34,084 nt of DNA from the IMG/VR virus record IMGVR_UViG_3300020207_001276, positions 1 to 34,084 of that record; one strand, 5' to 3'. This document shows positions 5,748 to 27,479 of the stretch, one piece after another. Position 1 is the stretch's first letter, and the number at the start of each line of letters is the position of its first letter. The notes under the pieces were generated by a model. The model had not been told where the DNA came from. It saw only the letters and a program-made list of their open reading frames with translations, and searched no databases. The position numbers and the translations under genes are program-made. Source of the DNA: a virus.

Positions 5748-6128
5748 ATGAACAAATACCTAAAAGAATTTGAAGATCATCTAAATCAATTTGAAGATGA
5801 TAACTGGGACGACTTTGACATGTCGGCTTCGGACGACGAAGAGCCAGGATTTAAACAAGCGTCAATGTATGAGCAACTTGGCAAAATACTTGATAGCCAA
5901 GGCAATCCTAATCCATTGAATAAAGTAACAACTGATGACGGCAAGCAACTAAAAGTAACACCAGATCAAGCTCGTATGCTTCGTATGCTTATGACTACAG
6001 ATAAAGTAAAGCCAATGGTTAGAACACAGTTTATTAAAGATGTTCAACAATCAAGTACATTAGTTGATTTCTTAGATCATGACTATCACGAACTACCTTC
6101 ATTGTTTGTTAAAAGGTATCTATCATAA
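5748..6128 (+). CDS. Acidic hypothetical protein, 126 aa
   Basis: The start at ATG 5748 (MNKYLKEFEDHL), just behind the previous stop, is preferred because GGAGAG lies right before it; a longer frame would reach back into the previous gene. The N-terminal third is very acidic (FEDDNWDDFDMSASDDEE). It is followed by a helical domain with PDQARMLRMLM and KVKPMVRTQF. The stop overlaps the next ATG (TAATG). The function is not recognised; its setting suggests a virion or assembly role. Confidence 0.68.
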   Translation: MNKYLKEFEDHLNQFEDDNWDDFDMSASDDEEPGFKQASMYEQLGKILDSQGNPNPLNKVTTDDGKQLKVTPDQARMLRMLMTTDKVKPMVRTQFIKDVQQSSTLVDFLDHDYHELPSLFVKRYLS

Positions 6129-6955: not shown

Positions 6956-6986
6956 AAAGCACCACTTTTATAGTGGTGCTTTTTTT
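6956..6986 (+). terminator. Rho-independent terminator
   Basis: An 11-bp perfect stem (AAAGCACCACT / AGTGGTGCTTT) with a 5-base loop TTTAT ends in a run of T at 6980-6986. It follows the 6540 gene by about 40 bases and is the strongest terminator in the window. Confidence 0.93.
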
Positions 6987-8796: not shown

Positions 8797-9199
8797 AAAC
8801 TTAGCTGAATCGTTAAAACAGTTAGTAGATACTACACTGGATCCTGCCCTTTTCCCAGTAAAAGATGGCAAGATTATCAACATAGGTTCGTATTCTATTA
8901 AATATTACTGTGGTACATACAAGATAAAAAGTTATAAAACCGGCAATATTGTTGCAAGTACTTACACCAAAGCGGCGGCACTGGCTGTGGCAAAAATGTT
9001 AAATAAAAATAAAAGCATAGACTCAATATTAAGTCTTGATGACATTGCGGCAAAGCATAGGACAGATTGTATCTTTTATAATCATATATTAGAAAAGACA
9101 GATAATCCTATAAAATTTGACTCTACATTAACAAGATACGATATATCTATGCAAAAACAAGAAGATGCAATAGAAAAAATTAAACAGTTTATTTGGTAA
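8789..9199 (+). CDS. Hypothetical protein, 136 aa
   Basis: The ATG lies inside the end of the preceding gene. The product has a central beta-rich segment (IGSYSIKYYCGTYKIKSYKTG) followed by a helix (TKAAALAVAKMLN) and a helical C-terminus (KQEDAIEKIKQFIW). No signal peptide or catalytic motif is seen. It ends a run of overlapping genes (7750-9199) and is followed by a late box. Confidence 0.66.
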   Translation: MNKNLAESLKQLVDTTLDPALFPVKDGKIINIGSYSIKYYCGTYKIKSYKTGNIVASTYTKAAALAVAKMLNKNKSIDSILSLDDIAAKHRTDCIFYNHILEKTDNPIKFDSTLTRYDISMQKQEDAIEKIKQFIW

Positions 9200-18190: not shown

Positions 18191-18198
18191 TATAAATA
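18191..18198 (+). promoter_or_regulatory. T4-like late promoter for tmRNA
   Basis: A perfect TATAAATA lies directly before the tmRNA; transcription would start near 18204. It is the best consensus late box on the + strand in the window. Confidence 0.75.
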
Positions 18199-19001: not shown

Positions 19002-19048
19002 TTTTGGTAAACTAATTATTTGACTTTGTAACAATATTGCGCTATAGT
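19001..19048 (+). promoter_or_regulatory. Sigma70-type promoter with inverted upstream element
   Basis: TTGACT (19020-19025), 17 bases, TATAGT (19043-19048). ATTTTGGTAAAC (19001-19012) is the exact reverse complement of GTTTACCAAAAT found at 20412-20423 before another promoter. Confidence 0.8.
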
Positions 19049-19093: not shown

Positions 19094-19360
19094 ATGGCTA
19101 AAACAAAAAGCACAATTGGAACAAAGTTCTTTAGAGAAGGAACTCAAAATCAAAAAATCTTACAAAAATACTGGGGAAATGGTAAAACATTTACTACATT
19201 TGACTTAGAAGATAAGTTAGATATTATGAGCCCAGGTGCAAGATTAACTGAGCTAAGAGAAGCTGGTTTTGACGTAAGAGTAGTAAATTCTAACTCAAAT
19301 GACATGCCAGGTAGACCTCAGGCTACATACAAAATCATGAAAAGAAGAGCATACGCATAA
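19094..19360 (+). CDS. Winged-helix/HTH small DNA-binding protein, 88 aa
   Basis: I choose ATG 19094 because AAGGAG lies at the right distance; the longer frame from 19037 would begin inside the promoter region. The sequence TFTTFDLEDKLDIMSPGARLTELREAGFDVRVV has the helix-turn-helix-plus-wing pattern of small phage winged-helix proteins. A basic C-terminal end follows (YKIMKRRAYA). With its own host-type promoter it is a candidate early regulator. Confidence 0.75.
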   Translation: MAKTKSTIGTKFFREGTQNQKILQKYWGNGKTFTTFDLEDKLDIMSPGARLTELREAGFDVRVVNSNSNDMPGRPQATYKIMKRRAYA

Positions 19361-19373
19361 TCTTTTCAGGTCT

Positions 19374-19415
19374 TTTACCAAAATAATTGACATTTAAATA
19401 AAACCCTGCTATACT
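19374..19415 (+). promoter_or_regulatory. Sigma70-type promoter with TTTACCAAAAT element
   Basis: TTTACCAAAAT (19374-19384), TTGACA (19387-19392), 17 bases, TATACT (19410-19415). Start expected near 19422. The spacer holds the left arm of the inverted repeat described next. Confidence 0.85.
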
Positions 19416-19448
19416 AATAGAGTAATAATTAGAAAGCAGGGTTTTATT
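19397..19448 (+). repeat. 13-bp perfect inverted repeat enclosing the promoter -10 and covering the ribosome site
   Basis: AATAAAACCCTGC (19397-19409) and GCAGGGTTTTATT (19436-19448) flank 26 bases that hold the -10 box. The right arm includes the AGGG ribosome site of the next gene. Only transcripts coming from upstream contain both arms; those from the internal promoter lack the left arm. Confidence 0.85.
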
Positions 19449-19904
19449 ATGACTATGAGCTTAGTACGTGGCTTGACCACACTGAACACTAAGAAACGCA
19501 AATCTAAAATGACTAAAGCAAAACATGAGCGTTTAGTCCAGCAACATCGTGAACATAATAAACGTATGAAACAACTAAATTGTCATGGCAATATAATGAC
19601 ATTTGACGAATATGTAGATTATGTACACGGAACATACAAACCTAAAAGTAAGCCAACTGCAACTAATTATAGTTGGAGTGATCATCACGGCTATACCAGA
19701 CAAACAGAACATATTCCAAGTCTAACAACAGAAGCAAGTTTTAGTCCTGCAACTAAAAAAGAATCTATGCAATACACAGGCGAACGTAAACTTGTAGGTA
19801 TTGCTATGATGCACAAATCAAATCTTGTTCCTGTATTTGCAGATGAAGATGACAAAGACGGTTCTAAACAAGCAACTGAAATCGCGCAGATGCGCCGCAA
19901 CTAA
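19449..19904 (+). CDS. Basic hypothetical protein, 151 aa
   Basis: Starts at ATG 19449 directly after the inverted repeat (a second ATG at 19455 is possible). The N-terminus SLVRGLTTLNTKKRKSKMTKAKHERLVQQH is strongly basic. FDEYVDYVHGTYKP and a His-rich middle (SDHHGYTR) follow, and the C-terminus is acidic. I recall relatives in marine T4-like phages with no known role. The regulated-looking leader suggests timed synthesis early in infection. Confidence 0.72.
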   Translation: MTMSLVRGLTTLNTKKRKSKMTKAKHERLVQQHREHNKRMKQLNCHGNIMTFDEYVDYVHGTYKPKSKPTATNYSWSDHHGYTRQTEHIPSLTTEASFSPATKKESMQYTGERKLVGIAMMHKSNLVPVFADEDDKDGSKQATEIAQMRRN

Positions 19905-19914
19905 AAGGTTAACA

Positions 19915-20412
19915 ATGAAAAATTTTCTTACAGCACTTGTTTTAATTCTATCTGCCTCTACAGCACAGGCAAATATGAATGTTCTATTTAAAGCTGAAAA
20001 CGAACCACAAGCGTGGTGTTTGGCACAAAATGTTTATTATGAATCACGGGGAAGTAGTTTAGCTGATCAAGCGGCTGTTGCTGATGTTGTATTAAATCGT
20101 GTCGAAGACGCTCGTTATCCAAATTCAATTTGCGGAGTTGTAAAACAAGGACGACAGTATGCAAGTGGACAAATGATTCGTAACCAGTGTCAGTTTAGTT
20201 GGTATTGCGATGGTAAAAGTGATTATCCTCGTGATAAAGAAGCATGGACTAAAGCACAACAGATAGCATATATGATGCTTTATTATAAGGATTATCGTGG
20301 TATTACAGAAGGTGCAACACACTATCATGCAGATTACGTTGCACCAAAATGGGCTAAAGATATGACTTTAATTGGACGTATTGGTAATCATATTTTCTAT
20401 CGATGGAAGTAG
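19915..20412 (+). CDS. Secreted SleB/CwlJ-type cell wall hydrolase
   Basis: The start at ATG 19915 is favoured because it gives a clean signal peptide, MKNFLTALVLILSASTAQA, and has AAGG upstream; the longer frame has none. The mature domain WCLAQNVYYESRGSS...VADVVLNRVEDARYP is the Hydrolase_2 (SleB) family, with the catalytic Glu in YYESRG. It then has CQFSWYCDG and GATHYHADYVAPKWA. It should cut peptidoglycan from the periplasm; phages use such enzymes for lysis. 165 aa. Confidence 0.9.
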   Translation: MKNFLTALVLILSASTAQANMNVLFKAENEPQAWCLAQNVYYESRGSSLADQAAVADVVLNRVEDARYPNSICGVVKQGRQYASGQMIRNQCQFSWYCDGKSDYPRDKEAWTKAQQIAYMMLYYKDYRGITEGATHYHADYVAPKWAKDMTLIGRIGNHIFYRWK

Positions 20413-20455
20413 TTTACCAAAATCACTTGACTTTTAAGTATTAGGCAGTTATAAT
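20413..20455 (+). promoter_or_regulatory. Sigma70-type promoter with TTTACCAAAAT element
   Basis: TTTACCAAAAT (20413-20423), TTGACT (20427-20432), 17 bases, TATAAT (20450-20455). It reads into the lipoprotein cluster. Confidence 0.87.
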
Positions 20456-20491
20456 ATAAGAACAATGAAAAATGCTTTTATGGAGGCAAAT

Positions 20492-27439: not shown

Positions 27440-27479
27440 GATAAATAAAGTTGACATTATAGTAAATAGATGTTATTAT
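27440..27479 (+). promoter_or_regulatory. Dual promoter before hsp20: late box and sigma70-type
   Basis: GATAAATA (27440-27447) lies directly before TTGACA (27451-27456), a 17-base spacer and TATTAT (27474-27479). The gene could therefore be expressed both early and late. Confidence 0.75.

Follow-up and report, generated by a model that had tools for sequence, protein, structure and literature searches.

The window, by which we mean the whole stretch of DNA analysed here, is 34,084 nucleotides (34 kb) of a linear IMG/VR virus record. Almost all of its genes lie on the + strand, and they include ribonucleotide reductase, a tail spike, GroEL and an IMP-dehydrogenase-like protein. The gene of interest encodes a 151-amino-acid protein and sits in a conserved phage neighbourhood, between a small winged helix-turn-helix gene and a cell wall hydrolase gene that is possibly co-expressed with it from the same promoter (Table 1). 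Its product gave no match in Pfam. Searches against phage records at the DNA and protein levels returned nothing, and we found no bacterial relatives of the gene and no cultured relative. Because of the lack of matches among phage records and of bacterial relatives, neither an annotated nor a cultured relative was available for the analysis. The box TTTACCAAAA lies 5′ of the −35 hexamer at three neighbouring promoters of the window and recurs at several promoters of G001 and G002; it is a candidate regulon site, possibly for the winged-helix protein.

Table 1. Features of the locus in the window (positions of the whole stretch) and arm pairs at homologous loci
Feature	Position	Strand	Remark
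Sigma70-type promoter of the winged-helix gene	19020..19048	+	candidate source of read-through RNA
Upstream gene, small winged helix-turn-helix protein (HTH_39)	19094..19360	+	E 4.5e-07
Box TTTTACCAAAA / TTTACCAAAA	19373..19383	+	directly 5′ of −35; recurs at other promoters of the window and relatives
Box TTTACCAAAA at a second promoter	20413..20422		5′ of −35
Box TTTACCAAAA at a third promoter	19002..19011	reverse	5′ of −35
−35 hexamer TTGACA, own sigma70-type promoter of the 151-aa gene	19387..19392	+	sequence reading
Left arm AATAAAACCCTGCT	19397..19410	+	within the −35/−10 spacer; only in RNA entering from upstream
−10 hexamer TATACT	19410..19415	+	sequence reading
Right arm AGCAGGGTTTTATT	19435..19448	+	over Shine-Dalgarno-like AGGG; ends at ATG; then U-rich TTTTATTA past last G
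Controlled gene, 151-aa protein, phrog_27048 (PHROG without assigned function)	19449..19904	+	conserved GIAMMHKSNLVPVFAD motif
Downstream gene, cell wall hydrolase (Hydrolase_2, endolysin-like)	19915..20412	+	10 nt past controlled gene
Arm pair, L002			TGAGCCTGT/ACAGGCTCA; same geometry, other letters
Arm pair, L003			TACCTGCCTTTG/CAAAGGCAGGTA; same geometry, other letters
Arm pair, L004			TGCGCCTAC/GTAGGCGCA; same geometry, other letters
Arm pair, L010			GTGGCGC/GCGCCAC; same geometry, other letters
Arm pair, L018			TGTGCCGC/GCGGCACA; same geometry, other letters
Arm pair, L041 and L153			AACTCCTGC/GCAGGAGTT; same geometry, other letters
Arm pair, L151			GTCTATTCCGTGC/GCACGGAGTAGGC; same geometry, other letters
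Arm pair, L175			CTCTGCTATAG/CTATAGCGGAG; same geometry, other letters
Arm pair, L203 and L212			TTTACGCT/AGCGTAAA; same geometry, other letters

The gene is preceded by a strong, near-consensus promoter (TTGACA-17-TATACT) that is interlaced with a perfect inverted repeat. The original prediction placed both correctly, and its description of the repeat as perfect stood on re-reading of the sequence; its length did not, the arms being 14 nt rather than 13 bp, with 24 nt between them. The prediction was also right that the repeat brackets the −10 box, since the left arm takes up 13 of the 17 bases of the spacer and reaches just into the hexamer, its last base being the first of TATACT, and that the right arm covers the AGGG and adjoins the ATG. 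From the usual spacing, transcription from this promoter is expected to start near 19421-19423, 3′ of the left arm. Among the inverted repeats listed for the 34-kb window (arms at most 60 nt apart), this is the longest perfect one. Its stem score was reached by none of 300 arm shuffles and the folding of its RNA is far from that of shuffled sequence (z = −6.4), and thus the repeat is not due to chance. No second copy of the arm AAAACCCTGC was found anywhere in the window with one mismatch allowed, and an Rfam covariance model search of the element gave no match at E ≤ 1. Three points went beyond the prediction: the position of the left arm specifically within the promoter spacer, the passage of the right arm into TTTTATTA, and a parallel with IS10 that is taken up below.

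We then compared the predicted folding of RNA that carries both arms with that of RNA starting at the internal promoter. The segment 19394-19451 folds with −21.2 kcal/mol (the z score given above), whereas window RNA that begins at the expected start is no more stably folded than its shuffled counterparts. The same separation is predicted across the loci that have the hairpin, where the predicted cost of opening the region −16..+3 is 14.9 kcal/mol in read-through RNA against 3.6 kcal/mol in own-promoter RNA, and 6.2 kcal/mol when the spacer alone is shuffled. Homologues that have a promoter and no hairpin give 6.4 (long RNA), 3.9 (short RNA) and 6.5 kcal/mol (spacer shuffled), and homologues without a promoter 6.0 kcal/mol. 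These values describe predicted folding, which leaves out co-transcriptional kinetics and ribosomes. Within that frame, long and short transcripts are separated just as had been proposed, the former folding over the ribosome site and the latter leaving it free.

The original prediction was to be abandoned if the pairing proved not to be conserved; the comparison was run, and pairing is kept across many relatives despite wholesale change of the letters. Scans of viral contigs yielded 147 distinct loci of the 151-aa gene, of which 75 have a sigma70-type promoter. In 44 of these 75, against an expectation of about 1.5, pairing of the spacer with the 28 nt that precede the ATG reaches shuffle p ≤ 0.02; related loci and contigs in this count are non-independent observations. 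With L058 (p = 0.024) the number becomes 45, and a variant form of pairing is seen at two further loci. Spacers of the hairpin homologues are 17 nt long, with L059 and L175 (16 nt) as the exceptions. The arms are frequently unrelated between loci (CCCTGC, GCGCC, ACTCCTG, TTACGC and others; Table 1), and of 22 positions in the spacer or −10 box, 21 show between 2 and 6 different kinds of canonical pair; covariation of the arms is thus shown. When arms were swapped between loci with dissimilar left arms, the mean stem score fell from 26.1 to 13.9, the native side being somewhat inflated because the p ≤ 0.02 criterion itself selects for pairing. On the protein tree the hairpin label requires 14 changes, at least 6 of which are forced by well-supported branches. 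A promoter without a clear hairpin is present in about 28 homologues; the gene can therefore do without the lock.

Pairing between spacer and ribosome site is specific to the 151-aa gene family: it occurs at 43 of its 75 promoters, against 6 of 137 promoters of other genes on the same contigs (2.7 expected), and the winged-helix gene accounts for two of those six. At the promoter of that gene, a spacer-Shine-Dalgarno pairing CTTTATTATT/AATAATAAGG is suggestive in L084 (about 2080-2159) and L296 (about 1580-1661); the corresponding hairpin was tested for in the window and not seen. A terminator-like hairpin, GAGCTCTTTTGAGCTCTTTTTTT, lies between promoter and winged-helix gene in G001 (near 20465, L320) and G002 (near 9157, L323), in an attenuator-like arrangement. 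Some members of the 151-aa family depart from the common layout. In L112 (2439-2520) the spacer TCTCGCTAAATGTATAGT pairs over 18 nt with codons 2-7 and not with the Shine-Dalgarno site, which is telling because the right arm is here fixed by the protein sequence. The spacer of L167, as we read it, would pair with the start codon as well as with the Shine-Dalgarno site. In five others (L055, L144, L145, L146 and L159) 6-7 nt separate the end of the −10 box from the ATG, from which a leaderless mRNA is predicted; this would be an alternative means of tying translation to the gene's own promoter. L053 carries, at about 5950-6000, a perfect palindrome, GTGCCTCCTCCGGGAGGCAC, and a T-run where the promoter would be.

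An inverted repeat around a −10 box could also suggest a DNA operator, with a dimeric repressor or a looping protein bound to both arms; such a placement is typical of operators, and a winged-helix gene lies directly upstream. A protein operator is expected to have conserved arms and no preference for G-U on one strand. The arms are almost wholly different among relatives that share the neighbouring winged-helix gene, and conservation near the promoter is seen in TTTACCAAAA, 5′ of the −35, and not in the arms. Moreover, non-Watson-Crick positions within stems are G-U in 12 cases and A-C in 4 (p = 0.077, not significant alone), and the ends of perfect cores give 27 G-U and 7 A-C in a set that was not dereplicated. 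This excess points to RNA, since on the + strand G-U alone, and not A-C, can pair. The pattern favours pairing that acts in RNA, and on the covariation and the G-U counts we rejected the operator, which we regard as very improbable.

A second alternative is that the hairpin is mainly an intrinsic terminator of upstream transcription, its overlap with the ribosome site following incidentally from the joint packing of these two with the promoter. The window stem has the look of one, with a G+C-rich centre, AAAA on the left flank and TTTTATTA on the right; as the right arm runs into this U-rich tract, the hairpin may also terminate transcription. Twelve of 33 distinct stems, window included, have at least 5 T in the 8 bases past the last G/C, most clearly ACTCCTGC..GCAGGAGTTTTTTTATG in L027, L041, L153 and L162. 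Termination could be the main effect in these stems, where loss of transcription may add to the translation block or replace it. The remaining 21 stems lack such a tract and continue directly to the ATG, which leaves hiding of the ribosome site as the common denominator. The 24-nt loop of the window hairpin is long for a terminator, and L112 pairs its spacer with codons instead. The hairpin was absent from the output of a simple terminator scan limited to loops of 3-8. The element resembles a terminator overlapping a promoter in having a G+C stem with a U-tract, which holds for the window and roughly one third of the distinct stems, but differs from it in the long loop, in the right arm reaching the ribosome site and in the absence of a U-tract from most relatives, and we hold termination to be unlikely as the principal function. 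A clear intrinsic terminator does occur elsewhere in the window, at 6956-6982, as a perfect 11-bp hairpin followed by TTTTTAT.

The lock that we favour needs RNA entering from upstream. The nearest source in the window is likely the winged-helix gene promoter at 19020, and no terminator was found between it and 19387. A further source could be late transcription. The large relatives G005 and G006 have gp23, which places them in the T4 superfamily, along with weak matches to gp55, the late sigma factor. In G005 the late-promoter-like ATAAATAC / GATAAATA is enriched upstream of genes; the T4 late consensus TATAAATA is not enriched there as a general late motif, and occurs in the window at 18191. 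Of the 34 hairpin loci with enough flank, 27 have ATAAATAC on the same strand at a distance of 0.6-2.3 kb upstream (2.4 kb searched; none on the other strand), against 1 of 27 promoter loci without a hairpin; the motif usually precedes a 47-aa gene whose ribosome site is good. The conserved module before this gene, AATAAATACNNACATAACCAAGGAGGGTTATG (L002-L007, L010, L014, L022 and others; 0.6-2.3 kb upstream), looks like a T4-type late promoter. In L008, L009 and L011, where a long reading frame encloses ATAAATAC, the motif is unlikely to act as a promoter. One could imagine from these data that the lock evolved to prevent expression of an early-type gene from late transcripts, which would invert the situation of T4 e. 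However, under phylogenetic pairing the association of hairpin and ATAAATAC was not significant (3 supported pairs); it is not independent of ancestry, and late read-through is thus a good guess and not a result. Furthermore, ATAAATAC is absent from the 2.4 kb upstream in the window and in the L027 group, and many loci also have upstream sigma70-type promoters. We therefore put this origin forward tentatively, as somewhat less than an even chance. Late-like and sigma70-like promoters stand in tandem at 27440-27479 of the window, where GATAAATA is followed directly by TTGACA-17-TATTAT.

The closest known arrangement is found in T4. In e, soc, 49 and I-TevI (also segB, and mobE of Aeh1), the ribosome site is hidden on RNA initiated upstream and accessible on RNA that starts at a late promoter located within the hairpin, and the genes under such control were reviewed as all being late genes with gp55-type promoters (PMC3014915, PMC2988022). 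The present element shares with them a promoter within the hairpin, a right arm over the Shine-Dalgarno site and start, an upstream RNA that can hide the ribosome site (here as predicted by folding) and an internal RNA that would lack the 5′ arm; the arm pair of T4 gene 49 (ACCCTTA/TAAGGGTTTATTATG) resembles that of the window, and these phages belong to the same superfamily as the relatives with gp23. Unlike the TATAAATA-type gp55 late promoters of T4, the window promoter is TTGACA-17-TATACT, its left arm is restricted to the spacer, and the gene comes from an unrelated family of unassigned function. The original prediction had drawn precisely this distinction, naming e and 49 as the same logic with late promoters; the papers bear it out, as does the absence of NATAAATA between 19360 and 19449.

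In our hands the IS10 end sequence, which matched plasmid records at 100%, has a left arm ACATCTTGTC upstream of the internal start and a right arm GACAACAAGATGT over the ATG, and its predicted folding agrees with expectation, the opening cost being 8.9 for the full length against 3.9 from nt 81. In the transposase genes of IS10 and IS50, read-through RNA folds over the start while RNA from the internal promoter does not, a protection reportedly described by Davis (1985), Krebs and Reznikoff (1986) and Schulz and Reznikoff (1991). The likeness lies in a non-late internal promoter with the left arm in or before it. In contrast, IS10 and IS50 guard a transposon gene with a weak promoter against outside promoters, whereas here we find a phage gene, near-consensus promoters, a rapidly evolving arm, a product with no Pfam match whose PHROG has no assigned function, and a conserved phage neighbourhood. 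Taken with T4, these precedents indicate that the element is the same logic with a sigma70-type promoter, the arm in the spacer and a new gene family.

Altogether, conserved pairing and predicted folding support the interpretation first proposed; the existence of read-through RNA, the start site and the effect on translation are inferred. A promoter-embedded RNA lock is, with good confidence, the best explanation. The 17 nt that separate the −35 and −10 hexamers of this gene's own sigma70-type promoter are complementary to the ribosome-binding site of the same gene. RNA arriving from the 19020 promoter or more distant ones would carry both arms, fold and hide that site; in the window, where the stem leads into a U-rich tract, some of these transcripts may end there, with an effect in the same direction. 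RNA from the internal promoter would start about ten bases past the left arm and be translated. As a result, the 151-aa protein would be made only when its own promoter fires.

We further propose, at even odds in our own estimate, that marine T4 relatives store an arm directed against the ribosome site in the sequence-tolerant sigma70 spacer, and so insulate the gene from all transcripts except those of its own promoter. This would reverse the use made in T4, where late genes are kept silent on early RNA, and the arms would have been re-invented or have drifted many times under selection for pairing alone. A classic control of T4 would thereby be extended from late to host-type promoters, with the spacer as a place where a spare arm can sit without harm to the promoter. 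The dozens of natural solutions with unrelated arms would offer a ready-made test of selection on RNA pairing at ribosome sites, and the layout suggests a compact insulator for genetic circuits.
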